NCBI GenBank assembly: GCA_003171065.1
Contig: PMXQ01000105.1
Coordinates: 1 to 32,945 of the forward strand
DNA length: 32,945 bases
From: Chloroflexota bacterium
GTDB taxonomy: Bacteria > Chloroflexota > Limnocylindria > Limnocylindrales > CSP1-4
Reading direction: 5' to 3'
Shown here: piece after piece, positions 25,315 to 32,945 of the stretch
Layout: each line of letters opens with the position of its first letter
Numbering within the stretch: the first letter of the stretch is position 1
The notes under the pieces: generated by a model
Told to the model about the DNA's origin: nothing
The model's database searches: none
What the model saw: only the letters and a program-made list of their open reading frames with translations
Made by a program: the position numbers and the translations under genes

Positions 25315-25360
25315 CCACTCGACCACTCGACCACTCGACCACTCGACCACTCGACCACTC
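25315..25360 (+). repeat. Tandem GACCACTC octamer array in the lepB leader
   Basis: A partial unit (CCACTC) followed by five perfect copies of the 8-nt unit GACCACTC. It lies 42 nt before the signal-peptidase start codon and just after the predicted transcription start, so copy-number change would alter leader length. Confidence 0.95.
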
Positions 25361-25401
25361 GTCGCGGGTATGCGCCCGCATGCAGCAGAGGGCGAACCCG
25401 G

Positions 25402-28211: not shown

Positions 28212-28844
28212 TCAGACCGCCTCGGCGAATTCTTCGTTGTCGGGTTTGAGGGCGACGAGCCGCTCCACGATGCCGAACCAGCTGCGCTCCAGCGTCAGCA
28301 CCTCGAGACCCTCAGCCAGGACATGGTCGAGCGGCTCACGCAGCAGGTGGTCGCCCATGCGCCTCAGCTCGATCGGCTCGAGCAGGCGCTCGATCGTCCG
28401 GACGATGCGGTTGGGGCTGCGAACGTGCTCGATCAGCAGCAGCGAACCACCCGGGCGCAGGACGCGCACGGCTTCGCAAACCGCGGTACGGTCGTCGGGG
28501 ATGGTGCACAGGGCATAGCAGAAGACGACGGTGTCGAAATGCTCGTCGGGGTAGGGGAGCGCCGCGGCGTCGCCCTGGCGGAGCGTCACGTCGAGGCCCA
28601 GCTCACGGGCGTGCCGTTCGGCGAGGTCCACGGCCACGCCGCTCAAGTCGATCCCGGTCAGACGTATGCTGCGAGGATAGAACGCCAGGGTTCGTCCCCG
28701 TCCGATGCCGATCTCCAGGGTTTCGCCGTCGGCCTTCGAGCACAGCCACTCGCAGCCCGCGTCGCGGCCGTTCGAGCGCGCGGAGGCGGATCGCCGGTCG
28801 TAGATCCGTCGAATTCTCTCCGTTTCGGTGTCGCTCGCGGGCAT
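28212..28844 (-). CDS. Class I SAM-dependent methyltransferase (UbiE-like)
   Basis: 210 aa. AdoMet-binding motif LEIGIGRGRT (43-52), acidic residue Asp66 in TGIDLSG, GDAAALPYPDEHFDTVVFCYAL and RVLRPGGSLLLIEHVRS are the classic Methyltransf_11/UbiE pattern. Substrate unknown. ATG 28844 lies 6 nt after a TACCGT -10 with TTTTCA 17 nt further up, so the mRNA is probably leaderless. Confidence 0.9.
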   Translation of the reverse strand: MPASDTETERIRRIYDRRSASARSNGRDAGCEWLCSKADGETLEIGIGRGRTLAFYPRSIRLTGIDLSGVAVDLAERHARELGLDVTLRQGDAAALPYPDEHFDTVVFCYALCTIPDDRTAVCEAVRVLRPGGSLLLIEHVRSPNRIVRTIERLLEPIELRRMGDHLLREPLDHVLAEGLEVLTLERSWFGIVERLVALKPDNEEFAEAV

Positions 28845-28850
28845 GGCGCA

Positions 28851-28879
28851 ACGGTAGGGCGCAGAACGGGCCCTGAAAA
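28851..28879 (-). promoter_or_regulatory. Promoter of the UbiE-like/APH operon
   Basis: Minus strand TTTTCA (28874-28879), 17 nt, TACCGT (28851-28856), then 6 nt to the ATG: a leaderless transcript. Confidence 0.6.
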
Positions 28880-28954
28880 GGGGCTCCCGCGAGCGGTTCG
28901 AGGAGCGCGGACCCGCGTGGCCCCGGGGGCCGGCTTCGAGCGTGGCCCAGGGGC

Positions 28955-29152
28955 ATTTCGGTCAGATGCAAACCGGGGTAGCACGAGACCAGATTGGGCC
29001 CTGGTCGGGGCCTGACTTTGGTCCGACAGGCCGGCCTCGATGCCGAGATTGAGCGTGAACAGAAAATCGATCGAGCGTCCCGGGCTCCAGGCGTGCCGTC
29101 CGCGACTTCTGCGAATTGGACTGGTGCTACCCGGGTTTGCACATGTCCAAAT
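28955..29152. repeat. Inverted-repeat pair, MITE-like
   Basis: Left arm 28955-28995 and right arm 29113-29152 are imperfect reverse complements. The core TGCAAACCGGGGTAGCAC (28967-28984) matches GTGCTACCCGGGTTTGCA (29124-29141) at 17 of 18 positions. The enclosed 117 nt are non-coding. It could be a miniature transposable element, a large hairpin or an RNA gene; no target-site duplication was identified. Confidence 0.6.
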
Positions 29153-29352
29153 CGCGTCGGCCGGCCAGCGCGGCGGGCTGCGGCGTGGGGGCAAGCGTCG
29201 GGCGCAAGCGATCGTATGGCGCGCGGATGTCCGTGGCGGCCGCCACGCAGGCCGAAGCGGAGTGGGCCGAGCCCTCGCCGCGGGGGGTGTCCGACGGGGG
29301 AGCGCGGGTGCGTCTGTAAAGGCGCGAGCCGCATATTGCACACTAGAGGGGT

Positions 29353-29874
29353 GTGGAAGCCGTCATTGATGGGGAAATGATCGACCTGGAGGGGTTCGAC
29401 TCGCAGTATGGGGAGCTGTTCGGCGACCTCGCTGCGCTGGCGCGCGCCCTGGGCGCCGGCCCCGATGCCGAGGACGTGGCGCAGGAGGCGCTCCTCCACG
29501 CCCGCCGCCACCTCAACCAGCTGCGCGACCCGGACAAGCTGCGGGCCTGGGTCCGGCGGATGGCGGTCCGTGGCGCCTGCCGCGCTCGCGGCCGGCACGT
29601 CGCCGACCTCGACACCGAGCACATAGAGCGCCTGCCCGCGGCGGACTTCCCGGATGTCGACGTGGCCGCCGCCATCGCCGGGCTGCCGGAGCGGGAGCGC
29701 CTGGCGGTGACGCTGGTCTATGGCCTCGGTTACCGCCAGGACGAGGCCGCCGAGCTGATGGGCGTTGCCAGCGGAACGGTTTATTCGAGCATCTGGCGGG
29801 CCCGACGCAAGCTGGCTCGCCTGCTCGCGGCGGACGAGCCAATCGCGGGGCAGATTGGGAGGAATCCGCGATGA
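29353..29874 (+). CDS. ECF-type RNA polymerase sigma factor
   Basis: 173 aa. Region 2 is seen in GPDAEDVAQEALLHARRHLNQLRDP-like sequence (about 35-60) followed by LRAWVRRMAVR; region 4 (about 107-155) has LPERERLAVTLVYGLGYRQ, the HTH DEAAELMGVASGTVYSSI and WRARRKLARLL. Directs polymerase to its own promoter set. GTG 29353 is used; ATG 29377 is an alternative. Its stop overlaps the next gene's start by four bases (ATGA), so sigma and the partner protein are made together. Confidence 0.9.
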   Translation: MEAVIDGEMIDLEGFDSQYGELFGDLAALARALGAGPDAEDVAQEALLHARRHLNQLRDPDKLRAWVRRMAVRGACRARGRHVADLDTEHIERLPAADFPDVDVAAAIAGLPERERLAVTLVYGLGYRQDEAAELMGVASGTVYSSIWRARRKLARLLAADEPIAGQIGRNPR

Positions 29875-32291
29875 ACAGCGTGATCACCGGACTGAGGGGA
29901 CGGCTGACGGCGATCTTGGGACGAGGGCACGTTGCCGAAACCCGACTCAACGCGATCGCCGAGGCCGGTGCGGTTGCCAGCTCCGCCGAGATGGCTCATC
30001 TGCAGGTTTGCCGACGCTGCCGGCGCCTGCTCGTTGGCTTCGGGCGGACCGCCGGTGTCCTGGGCGGCGCCTGGGCCGACCGGGCGCTCAACCGGGGCGT
30101 CGAGATACCCGCGGGGACCGCTCACGTCCGGCTCGGCCTGGCCGGCGGGTTCGGTCGACCGGCCGGCCGCGGCGTGCACCGGCGGGCGGCCGTCCCGGCG
30201 GGTTTGGTCGCGATCCTGGTCGCGCTCGTGGCGACGGCCGGGCTGCTGGCCCTGCGCGGCGGCGGCCTTGCGCCTGCGGCGAGCGGCCCGCGGGGTTCGA
30301 CAGCAGGAGCAACGCCGTACGGAACGCCTCAGATTACGGGTCTCGTCGCGCGGCTGCCGCTCGGCGGGCAAGTCTCCTGGGCTCCGGACAGCAAGCACCT
30401 GCTCGTCTCCTCGGAGACTGGCAGCGTCGTCTACGACCGATTTGGCAACCTCGTCTCCTCCTTCGGGCAGTTCGAAGGCTGGCTGGACGCGACCCACCTC
30501 ATCTCCGGCGACGGCCACGTGGCCGGCATCGACGAGCCGTATACGGGCGGGCCGACGGACAACTCGTGGGTCGTCGCCAGCGGTCACGGCTCGGCGGCGA
30601 TCATCGTGGCCATGCCCGGGTGCGTAGGCGATCCCCTGATCGATTGGTATGAGAACGGTCAGTACGTGAAAGCGGGCGAGAAAGCCACCCCCTACGGCTG
30701 GTCGCCCGACGGCAAGCTGGTCCTGCTCGGCCATCTCGACTGTTCGGACATGGACGCCGAGCTGCATGGCTGGAAGGGTTCGGTCGACGTGGTCGACTTC
30801 GCCTCGGGCCGCGTCCTGGCAACTGCCCCGAACGTCCGCGGTGAGATGGCTTTCAACCCGTCGGCGACTCGTCTCGCCGCCCAATCGGACGCGGATCTTG
30901 AGATCGTGGACATCGCCGGCGGCTCGGTCCAGACGATCCCAGGGGCGCGCTTCCTGGGCTGGTTCGATGACGACCATCTCTACTATCGGGCCGGCGCGAC
31001 ATTGGAGATGTTCAACCTGCGCTCGGGCGCCTCGGCCAGCGCCGTCGTTGGCAGTGGCGAATGGCAGGTTCCGTCGCCGGCCGGCCCGTGGCTCGTCGTC
31101 GATGCTACGGGTGCAGTCCGACGCATCGTCGCCGCAGACTGGACCACCACACTGCTGGACCTCAGGTCGGCGAGCCTCCTTGTCGACGCCAACCAGGCGT
31201 CCGATCAGATGGTCTCGGAGCTGCAGCAGCGGTGGTGGTCGCCCGACGGTCGATTGCTGGCGCTCAAATCCTCGGACGGCACCTCGCTGGCGCTCTTCTC
31301 GGTCACCGACTTGCCCGGCTCGATCGCCGGCGCCCTGCCGACGCCGATCGCCTCGCCCCAGGCCATCGGCGAGCTCGACCGCACGGCCCTGCCCGGGCCC
31401 GTCGGCCAGCTCGTTTCGGACCCGGCGCGCGACGTCTTCTGGTTCCTCGGCGGCGAGTCGGGCGGGCCGATCGACCTGTACCGCTACGACGTCGGTACGG
31501 CGAAGCTGTCCAGCAGCCCCGTCGCGGGCACGACCTACGATCGGACGAAGGATCGACTCGCCATCGCGCCGGACGGCAAGCTCTGGATCGGCGCGGGGTT
31601 GGATCTGATCGTCTGCGACCCCGATACCGCCGACCAGACCAGCCTGACGCTTCCGGCTTCGGGACCGGATATCGAGACCGATCCCAAGCTTGGCAAGCCC
31701 GATCCATGGATCGCCGGCATCGCCTTCGACGGCAGCGGCAATGCTCTGATCGCCCGCAACTGGGTGAGATCGCTGACCCAGGTGGATGCCTCGCTGAAGG
31801 TGACCGGCAGCATCGACGTCTCGGACGGCTTCCCGATAACCGGCGGCCTGGTCGTCGCCGGAGGTCGGGCCTTCGTGGTGGCGGATCCGGCGACCGGATT
31901 CGGCTTTGGAGTCGACGCCAGCGGGAGCCAGGCCCTATCGAGCATGAAGTTCCAGGCGTCGGGGCTGGTGGCGGTCGGGGACAGAGTTCTGACGGCCGGG
32001 ACGCCGCCGGGCTGGATCGATTCGAACGGCGGAGAGCCGATGATCGAGCCCGTCATGGCCTCGGCCGACCTGGTCGCGGCCGGCCCCGACGGCACTGCCG
32101 TGCTCTACAGCAGCGCGACCGGCGAGATGCAATGGCGCGACAAGGGCGGTGAGGTGTCGGCCCAGGGGCTCTTCAAGGCCGGCGCGGCGCCGCAGATCGT
32201 CGCCCTCGGCTTCGACGCCCAGGGGCGGCAATGGGCCGTCGAGTCGGCCGGCGGCGCCACCTCGTTGGTCCGCCTGAGCCTCGGCGCGTAG
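29871..32291 (+). CDS. Predicted anti-sigma factor with transmembrane helix and extracytoplasmic beta-propeller
   Basis: 806 aa. The cytoplasmic N-terminus carries H43-x3-C47-x2-C50 (HLQVCRRC), the core of the zinc anti-sigma (ZAS) motif. A single transmembrane helix lies at about 107-128. The remaining 650 residues or more, predicted outside, consist of repeated four-stranded blades with WSPDGKL, WWSPDGRL and APDGKL motifs of WD40/TolB/SMP-30-type propellers. Two full propellers are possible. By family logic the N-terminus holds the sigma factor and the propeller senses an outside ligand or protein; that is inference. Start ATG 29871 overlaps the sigma stop. Convergent with gltD, separated by a repeat array. 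Confidence 0.85.
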   Translation: MNSVITGLRGRLTAILGRGHVAETRLNAIAEAGAVASSAEMAHLQVCRRCRRLLVGFGRTAGVLGGAWADRALNRGVEIPAGTAHVRLGLAGGFGRPAGRGVHRRAAVPAGLVAILVALVATAGLLALRGGGLAPAASGPRGSTAGATPYGTPQITGLVARLPLGGQVSWAPDSKHLLVSSETGSVVYDRFGNLVSSFGQFEGWLDATHLISGDGHVAGIDEPYTGGPTDNSWVVASGHGSAAIIVAMPGCVGDPLIDWYENGQYVKAGEKATPYGWSPDGKLVLLGHLDCSDMDAELHGWKGSVDVVDFASGRVLATAPNVRGEMAFNPSATRLAAQSDADLEIVDIAGGSVQTIPGARFLGWFDDDHLYYRAGATLEMFNLRSGASASAVVGSGEWQVPSPAGPWLVVDATGAVRRIVAADWTTTLLDLRSASLLVDANQASDQMVSELQQRWWSPDGRLLALKSSDGTSLALFSVTDLPGSIAGALPTPIASPQAIGELDRTALPGPVGQLVSDPARDVFWFLGGESGGPIDLYRYDVGTAKLSSSPVAGTTYDRTKDRLAIAPDGKLWIGAGLDLIVCDPDTADQTSLTLPASGPDIETDPKLGKPDPWIAGIAFDGSGNALIARNWVRSLTQVDASLKVTGSIDVSDGFPITGGLVVAGGRAFVVADPATGFGFGVDASGSQALSSMKFQASGLVAVGDRVLTAGTPPGWIDSNGGEPMIEPVMASADLVAAGPDGTAVLYSSATGEMQWRDKGGEVSAQGLFKAGAAPQIVALGFDAQGRQWAVESAGGATSLVRLSLGA

Positions 32292-32296
32292 ATAGC

Positions 32297-32383
32297 CGCT
32301 CGAGCCGGCTTGGCGCCGAGCCCGCGGCGCCCCGCTCGAGCCGGCTTGGCGCCGAGCCCGCGGCGCCCCGCGCGAGCCGGCTT
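32297..32383. repeat. 36-bp direct repeats with internal hairpin, between convergent genes
   Basis: Two identical 36-nt units (32297-32332, 32333-32368) and a third partial one to 32383. Each full unit contains GGCTTGGCGCCGAGCC, a near-perfect 16-nt hairpin (one G-U pair). The array fills the gap between the anti-sigma and gltD stops and may act as a two-way terminator. Confidence 0.85.
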
Positions 32384-32384
32384 C

Positions 32385-32945
32385 TCAGCCGGGCAGGACC
32401 GTCTCACCGAACATCAGGAACCGATCGACGCCGCGGGCGGCAAGGCGGCCCTCGTGGATCGCCCACACGACCAGCGATTGGCCGCGCGAGCAGTCCCCGG
32501 CGGCAAAGACGCCCGGGGCCGTGGTCATCATGTCGTCGTCGTGGACGATGTTGCCGCGGTGGTCCAGCTTGCAGCCGAACGCGGCCGGCAGCTCGGGCGC
32601 CGGGCCGAGGAAGCCCATGGCGATCAGGACCAGGTCGGCCTCGAGGACCTTCTCGGTGCCTTCGCGCTCGCACATCTCCGGCCGGCCGCTCGAACCGTGC
32701 ACCCATTCGATCTCGACCGTCTCGATGGCGCTAACCCGGCCGGTGTCGTCGCCGATCAGGCGGCGCGTGTTGATGAGATAACGGCGCGGGTCGGCGCCCC
32801 ACAGAGCCGCGGCCTCTTCCTGGCCGTAGTCCATCTTGTAGACCTTGGGCCATTGCGGCCACGGGTTGTCGGCGGCGCGCGTCTCCGGCGGGCGGGGCAG
32901 GATCTCGAGCTGCGTGACGCTCTTCGCGCCCTGGCGGATGGCCGT
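32385..32945 (-). CDS. gltD: Glutamate synthase small subunit, C-terminal part (cut by window edge)
   Basis: The visible 186 codons are the C-terminal part of GltD, open to the right edge, so the 5' end is missing. Seen: AIRQGAKSVTQLEILPRPP, the typical WPQWPKVYKMDYGQEEA, YLINTRRLIGDD, LVLIAMGFLGPAPEL and the final FAD-binding VFAAGDCSRGQSLVVWAI. The subunit passes electrons from NADPH via FAD and Fe-S clusters to the large subunit that makes glutamate from glutamine and 2-oxoglutarate. gltB would be expected upstream, to the right of the window. Confidence 0.95.
   Translation of the reverse strand, partial: TAIRQGAKSVTQLEILPRPPETRAADNPWPQWPKVYKMDYGQEEAAALWGADPRRYLINTRRLIGDDTGRVSAIETVEIEWVHGSSGRPEMCEREGTEKVLEADLVLIAMGFLGPAPELPAAFGCKLDHRGNIVHDDDMMTTAPGVFAAGDCSRGQSLVVWAIHEGRLAARGVDRFLMFGETVLPG

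Follow-up and report, generated by a model that had tools for sequence, protein, structure and literature searches.

A probable signalling unit of an extracytoplasmic function sigma factor and a putative zinc-binding anti-sigma factor with two predicted propellers and exchangeable outside domains in Chloroflexota

A probable two-gene signalling unit

The stretch of DNA analysed here (the window, 32,945 nucleotides) belongs to contig C103 of a Chloroflexota metagenome-assembled genome (MAG; 3.02 Mb in 151 contigs, 88.39% complete) and carries a pair of overlapping genes at 29353..29874 and 29871..32291. We interpret the pair, with a probability of about 0.78, as a two-gene signalling unit, in which an extracytoplasmic function (ECF) sigma factor would be held by a zinc-binding anti-sigma (ZAS) factor with propellers outside the cell, would be transcribed from a promoter of its own, and would receive its signals through sensors that are exchangeable among relatives. 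The gene pair and its overlap, the zinc motif, the membrane helix, the conserved upstream block, and the exchange of outside domains can all be read from the sequences compared.

For most ECF/anti-sigma pairs, a single type of sensor is known. The close relatives of the window pair appear to provide a naturally occurring series of domain swaps on a single sigma/ZAS chassis that sits at one chromosomal slot and has a sharply defined promoter. Such a system makes two questions directly testable, namely how the outside domain and the release of sigma are linked, and whether an ECF sigma factor can have itself as its sole target. The chassis could also be a ready-made scaffold for sensors with chosen outside domains.

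The sigma gene and the anti-sigma gene

The sigma gene (29353..29874, forward strand, GTG start) encodes 173 amino acids, in which Pfam recognised region 2 (Sigma70_r2, residues 28–79, 32.2 bits, cut-off 24) and region 4 (Sigma70_r4_2, residues 104–154, 50.9 bits, cut-off 25.7), separated by a linker gap of 24 residues. The protein also exceeded the cut-off of the NCBIfam sigma70-ECF superfamily (51.1 bits against 42.9); the best NCBIfam subfamily, TIGR02983 SigE-fam_strep, stayed below its own (77.2 bits against 141.55). ECF sigma factors consist of regions 2 and 4 only, joined by a linker of fewer than 50 residues (PMC8103513). The window sigma has this composition, and an anti-sigma gene is co-encoded with it through an ATGA overlap. 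An initial annotation of the window had proposed exactly this arrangement, and the reading frames coincide with it to the base.

The second gene (29871..32291, forward strand, ATG start) encodes a predicted membrane anti-sigma factor of 806 amino acids. Its short, presumably cytoplasmic N-terminal part contains an exact Hx3Cx2C motif, HLQVCRRC (residues 43–50, 29997..30020), of which H43, C47, and C50 are invariant in all nine full-length orthologues. The motif lies across helices 38–46 and 48–65 of the structural model (predicted local distance difference test, pLDDT, about 60–70 there) and not in an unrelated domain. Placement of Hx3Cx2C over helices 2–3 defines class I anti-sigma factors (PMC7406223), and the same placement is seen here at middling model confidence; by its motif, the N-terminus is therefore assigned as a putative zinc-binding ZAS domain. 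As the initial annotation had held, hydropathy showed a single hydrophobic stretch, a membrane helix at about residues 110–128 (30198..30254; the best 19-residue window begins at residue 110). Basic residues directly precede it, and the ZAS end would face the cytoplasm and the remainder the outside.

For the 806-residue protein, no Pfam match exceeded its cut-off (the best reached 19.1 bits), NCBIfam gave none, and a sequence search of the PDB returned two matches only, to a hydrolase (E 0.51 and 0.66). The frame is kept in eight orthologues with 52–81% identity and third codon positions were the most divergent in all seven comparisons; thus, the gene is real and its reading frame is not due to chance. 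In the same comparisons, conservation of the first outside domain (P1) exceeded that of the ZAS end in 7/7 cases and conservation of the second (P2) did so in 6/7, which argues that the function of the outside part is conserved.

Predicted structure of the outside part

The AlphaFold2 model of the whole anti-sigma protein was built from 14 aligned sequences (mean pLDDT 66.7; predicted template modelling score, pTM, 0.42) and a model of P1 alone from 13 sequences (pLDDT 68.0, pTM 0.69). In the whole-protein model, three helices (residues 23–31, 38–46, and 48–65) form the cytoplasmic end and are followed by two beta domains, with residues 62–152, including the membrane helix, lacking confident structure. 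The WD40-like propeller P1 occupies about residues 152–490 (30324..31340, forward strand, model m352d490dc688), and propeller P2 about residues 503–806 (31377..32288, forward strand, model mcee0a12d2bff). Since no family match exceeded its cut-off, the term propeller is based on AlphaFold2 models of middling confidence together with fold comparison.

P2 is the better modelled of the two, with pLDDT mostly of 70–90. In the fold comparison with VIA-align it resembled virginiamycin B lyase 2z2o (Z 22.9, root mean square deviation, rmsd, 3.6, 270 residues aligned) and YncE (Z 22.8), with several WD40 proteins also tied; as the top rows of the lists lay within Z 1 of each other, no single closest structure is claimed. 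P2 is thus predicted to share the virginiamycin B lyase fold, and the Pfam model Vgb_lyase had no match to the 806-residue protein at E 1. For P1, the best row reached Z 14.2 (rmsd 4.9, 270 residues aligned) and the top rows were all of the WD40 type; the second Foldseek hit was 5yzv, a bacterial WD40 domain, and a stand-alone homologue of P1 exceeds the Pfam cut-offs for WD40 and PD40.

The models point to an outside part made of two separate, unrelated-looking propellers. The initial annotation had described more than 650 propeller-like residues as one huge propeller; the propeller character of the outside part stands, and a single giant propeller was rejected, as the model shows two domains joined at about residues 485–506, where pLDDT falls below 50. 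A disulphide between C251 and C291 of P1 was considered and is not claimed, C251 being kept in all 13 rows with P1 and C291 lost in two of them.

The sigma family and its range of partners

A search with the 806-residue protein matched 19 of 201 relatives, and the full double-propeller form, with 52–82% identity, was found in nine genomes, that of the window included. The nearest named relatives of the window genome are MAGs labelled "Chloroflexi bacterium", and of the 12 loci that the protein search retrieved, 10 come from "fen" isolates. An alignment of 27 sigma factors was then compared with 177 genomes of the class and 400 of the phylum; these searches scored part of the first-look candidates, so weaker members may be missed. 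The family is sharply bounded, with 27 matches above 200 bits, one further copy (G005) broken by undetermined bases, and the next score at 108 bits. It comprises at least 28 members. Within the genus, 18 of 21 genomes contain them, and three further genera of the same taxonomic family contribute a single genome each (G034, G046, and G088). Each of the 28 sigma genes has a partner gene that overlaps it at offset –1 (ATGA or GTGA) and encodes a membrane ZAS protein with Hx3Cx2C; in L002 and L077 the partner runs past the contig end. Three sigma factors with 35–37% identity (L092–L094) have no ZAS partner and fall outside the family.

The outside parts of the partners are diverse. Nine of the 28 carry P1-P2. 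Pfam identified two LysM domains in two partners (L073, 70.7 bits; L088, the same gene as L024, 76.6 bits) and, in one each, Kelch (L081, 885 amino acids, 192.9 bits), PD40 (L091, 89.1 bits), and LDL-receptor class B repeats (Ldl_recept_b; L089, 51.2 bits). Eight partners are of about 530 amino acids with a Pro/Ser-rich linker, and the three that were scanned (L075, L085 as its copy L025, and L086 as its copy L033) gave no Pfam match above cut-off; nor did the two scanned among the three partners of about 500 amino acids. The partners L079 and L087, of about 268 amino acids, bear a short outside domain without a Pfam match above cut-off, which may represent the simplest sensor of the family, and one partner of 993 amino acids has an internal duplication and no Pfam match above cut-off where scanned. 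The same fusion is thus found in the nine double-propeller genomes, and other members bear LysM, Kelch, PD40, or LDL-receptor-B domains in its place.

Two other ECF genes of Chloroflexota overlap membrane proteins that lack Hx3Cx2C and have propeller-like outside parts: a partner of 436 amino acids with a weak Vgb_lyase match (21.4 bits) in L031, and one of 444 amino acids with repeated DGG..W motifs in L094. Propeller-bearing ECF partners may be commoner in Chloroflexota than the ZAS family alone would indicate.

Exchange of outside domains at one chromosomal slot

On the tree of 27 sigma factors, those paired with P1-P2 (8), LysM (2), and Kelch (1) formed one clade with support of 100/100, and the LysM clade was nested inside it (100/96), the branching order around it being weak. 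The LysM, Kelch, and other P1-P2 sigma factors of this clade are 71–94% identical to that of the window. The full forms (L063–L070) share one chromosomal slot, with a signal peptidase gene and a gltD-like gene as neighbours in all eight and a methyltransferase gene in seven. The LysM forms (L024/L088 and L073) occupy the same slot as the double propeller, and in L071, L072, L022, and L074 it is filled by a membrane- or lipid-anchored P1 alone, without sigma. In L073, the sigma gene is followed by a gene for ZAS, membrane helix, and two LysM domains, and 84 bases further on by P1 as a gene of its own; ZAS and P1, fused in the window, are encoded there by adjacent genes. A tandem pair of signal peptidase genes (L073:3410-4642) was also observed at this locus, the single case among the loci compared.

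The stand-alone P1 of L074 (L074:5827-7035) has a lipobox-like N-terminus, ILAVVAAC. This N-terminus points to export, and P1 can accordingly be pictured as a possible lipoprotein. The membrane helices of the P1-alone proteins and of the LysM anti-sigma factors are about equally like that of the fused protein (71.5 and 71.8 in L073), and on the P1 tree of 15 rows five of the six stand-alone copies lay outside the fused set and L072 inside it, with no branch starred. Either fusion or splitting of ZAS and P1 may have come first. The placing of the Kelch member (L030) at the same slot was unsupported, since sigma and ZAS alone gave a match within its 3.4 kb; in that member's genome the slot is filled by a stand-alone P1 (L022).

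As judged by these comparisons, the system appears as a constant sigma/ZAS chassis with exchangeable outside sensors, which would work like RsgI, probably without being one.

A promoter-like block upstream of the pair

Conservation upstream of the sigma gene is confined to a short block. With a column counted as conserved if 11 or all 12 of the orthologues agree, there were 0 of 49 at –90 to –42 and 18 of 41 at –41 to –1, including nine consecutive columns (TGTAAAGGC, –38 to –30) and a CACTA whose last base is at –8. In the window, the –35-like element TGTAAAGGC (29315..29323, forward strand, 0 mismatches) spans –38 to –30 and the –10-like element CACACTA (29339..29345, forward strand) –14 to –8 relative to the start codon, and their spacing of 15 is constant among the orthologues aligned. 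As both blocks occupy the –35 and –10 places for a transcript beginning at the start codon, the arrangement suggests autoregulation through a leaderless or nearly leaderless transcript; a transcription start slightly upstream of the start codon would also be compatible with it. About 55% of ECF sigma factors are predicted to be autoregulated (PMC8103513).

Scans for the motif were made on incomplete MAGs, whose gaps limit the counts. Across the genus (21 genomes), the exact pattern TGTAAAGG-N15-18-CACTA had 11 sites, every one of them upstream of this sigma gene (control 3), and it was absent from the nine genomes without a sigma orthologue. TGTAAA-N17-20-CACTA gave 12 sites in the 21 genomes, 11 of them own promoters (control 10) and the sole other one, with different spacing, on G012:C167. 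When a single mismatch was allowed, own promoters were the only sites in the 12 genomes that have the sigma gene (11 exact, one mismatch in G008); one-mismatch sites were also found in G007 and G018 (two sites), both genomes without this sigma. A promoter-like motif is thus present before the pair, and no second convincing target was detected by motif among the 21 genomes of the genus, which partly answers the question of the regulated genes that the initial annotation had raised.

The second sigma/anti-sigma pair of the genome (C80) is preceded by a different motif, GGTAAAC..CTACTA, which in the 21 genomes occurs at its own place in G000 (the window genome) and G015 only (control 9). Paralogous sigma factors have blocks at the same positions with other letters. 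The window genome shows 30 places with a sigma-like match at E ≤ 0.001, a large number of ECF genes for an incomplete genome of 3.0 Mb.

Proposed mechanism and alternative explanations

According to the mechanism that we favour, the cytoplasmic ZAS end would keep the ECF sigma factor at the membrane, and the two outside propellers would report an extracellular or envelope signal, upon which sigma would be freed, probably through proteolysis in the membrane. Freed sigma would then transcribe its own operon from TGTAAAGGC-N15-CACACTA, with transcription beginning on the GTG start codon or right beside it. We infer the holding of sigma, the outside position of the propellers and hence the topology, and the membrane proteolysis from knowledge of the family; the direction of the switch and the leaderless start are likewise proposals. 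A homologue of M50 site-2 proteases is present in the genome (143.6 bits); since M50-type matches also occur in all 14 control genomes, this gene merely permits a proteolytic step. As regards the signal, LysM domains bind glycans containing N-acetylglucosamine, so that a wall- or glycan-linked signal is our best guess and no more. The two LysM versions are the only indirect support for the polymer, protein, or cell-wall ligand suggested by the initial annotation.

Several observations weigh against this interpretation. The P1 model is weak at about residues 201–252. The conserved GG that directly precedes the start codon may belong to a ribosome site, in which case the start would not be leaderless, and TGTAAAGGC and CACACTA lack the AAC (–35) and CGT (–10) of classical ECF promoters, a trait of the early ECF definition that was later dropped (PMC8103513). 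In addition, looser scans gave nothing beyond the reversed-pattern control that would indicate a larger regulon: at most two mismatches yielded 71 sites against 547, and the longer motif with at most three mismatches in the own genome 5 against 25, the control being imperfect because the reversed pattern is far commoner in these genomes. Further targets may be lacking altogether, or they may be degenerate and invisible to such scans. The latter would hold if the same unit governed a normal, larger regulon, its own promoter being merely the strongest, which we regard as quite conceivable at somewhat less than even odds: most known ECF sigma factors have targets beyond themselves, the genomes are incomplete, and eight sites with at most two mismatches exist in the own genome. 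However, at the fixed spacing and with no more than one mismatch, every site in the 12 orthologue genomes is the own promoter, and the TGTAAA pattern adds the single differently spaced site on G012:C167. At the other extreme, the own operon might be the sole promoter of the sigma factor, the switch setting the dose of its own surface protein, a closed circuit that we consider rather doubtful. Sensor and product would then be the same protein, with the ZAS end as a feedback device through which an outside binding module sets its own dose, which seems to us similarly speculative; and it is no less tentative that the module (double propeller, LysM, or Kelch) was exchanged in evolution while this circuit remained constant.

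Two further explanations concern single elements of the unit. The zinc site itself could be the sensor, cytoplasmic thiol oxidation freeing sigma as in RsrA/RshA and the propellers serving, for example, as a surface scaffold; the full Hx3Cx2C motif would allow this, and soluble ZAS proteins sense redox state (PMC8999054). The anti-sigma factor has a membrane helix, however, its P1 and P2 are mostly better conserved than the ZAS end, and the exchange of outside parts would be needless for a pure redox sensor, which makes this explanation improbable. We give equally little credence to the conserved block being an operator or a translation signal with expression driven by another sigma factor. 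Such a role would suit a block that extends to 8 bases from the start codon, whereas the position of both elements at the –35 and –10 places, the blocks with other letters at the same places before paralogous sigma genes, and the lack of any sigma-70 consensus promoter at 28800-32500 (mean of shuffles 0.1) argue for a promoter of the sigma factor itself.

Comparison with known systems

The closest known relatives of the unit are the membrane-bound ZAS (class I) anti-sigma factors, with which it shares the overlapping ECF gene, Hx3Cx2C over helices 2–3, and one membrane helix; about 65% of class I anti-sigma factors are membrane-bound, and Chloroflexi are rich in them (PMC7406223). Unlike in the usual membrane ZAS proteins, the outside part here is very large and exchangeable, being two propellers, LysM, or Kelch in close relatives. 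A constant anti-sigma end and helix with divergent outside sensors is also described for the SigI/RsgI paralogues of Clostridium thermocellum, in which the sensors are of CBM, GH, and PA14 type (PMC12203970) and not propellers. Domain-rich large sensors being known on RsgI, size alone is not the novelty. Exchange here also occurs between orthologues at one slot, in contrast to RsgI, and no regulon of polysaccharide enzymes was found. SigI is not an ECF sigma factor, and RsgI is not known as a ZAS protein; no RsgI model was among the Pfam and NCBIfam matches of the anti-sigma protein, which were not complemented by a direct comparison, and its partner matches ECF models.

Bacteroidetes hybrid two-component systems likewise place a double-propeller outside part of about 700–900 amino acids on a membrane regulator (PMC3243724), and the Bacteroides sensors 3v9f and 3ott ranked 47 and 48 in the Foldseek list for the whole model; their output is a histidine kinase, their domains are Reg_prop and YYY, and no sigma factor is involved. 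WD40-like repeats are tied to ECF control in the ECF57 sigma factors as well (PMC8999054), where they form a C-terminal extension of sigma itself without a separate anti-sigma factor. The parts are thus known singly, as ZAS anti-sigma factors, exchangeable RsgI sensors, double propellers, and WD40-like repeats on ECF57. Among the CC-licensed PMC articles listed, no earlier propeller-ZAS combination, orthologue exchange, or self-only motif was met, which leaves their absence from print unproven.

Genomic neighbourhood and further observations

The sigma gene is flanked upstream by a divergent methyltransferase gene, and the anti-sigma gene downstream by a convergent reading frame that we read as probable gltD from its Pyr_redox_2 match. 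The region 28800-32500 showed no terminator-like site. Directly behind the anti-sigma gene, at 32296-32383, a G+C-rich unit of 36 bases is repeated in 2.4 copies that are 98% alike. A further repeat, CCACTCGA in 5.9 perfect copies, lies before the signal peptidase gene at 25315-25361 and could be a variable tract or an assembly artefact.

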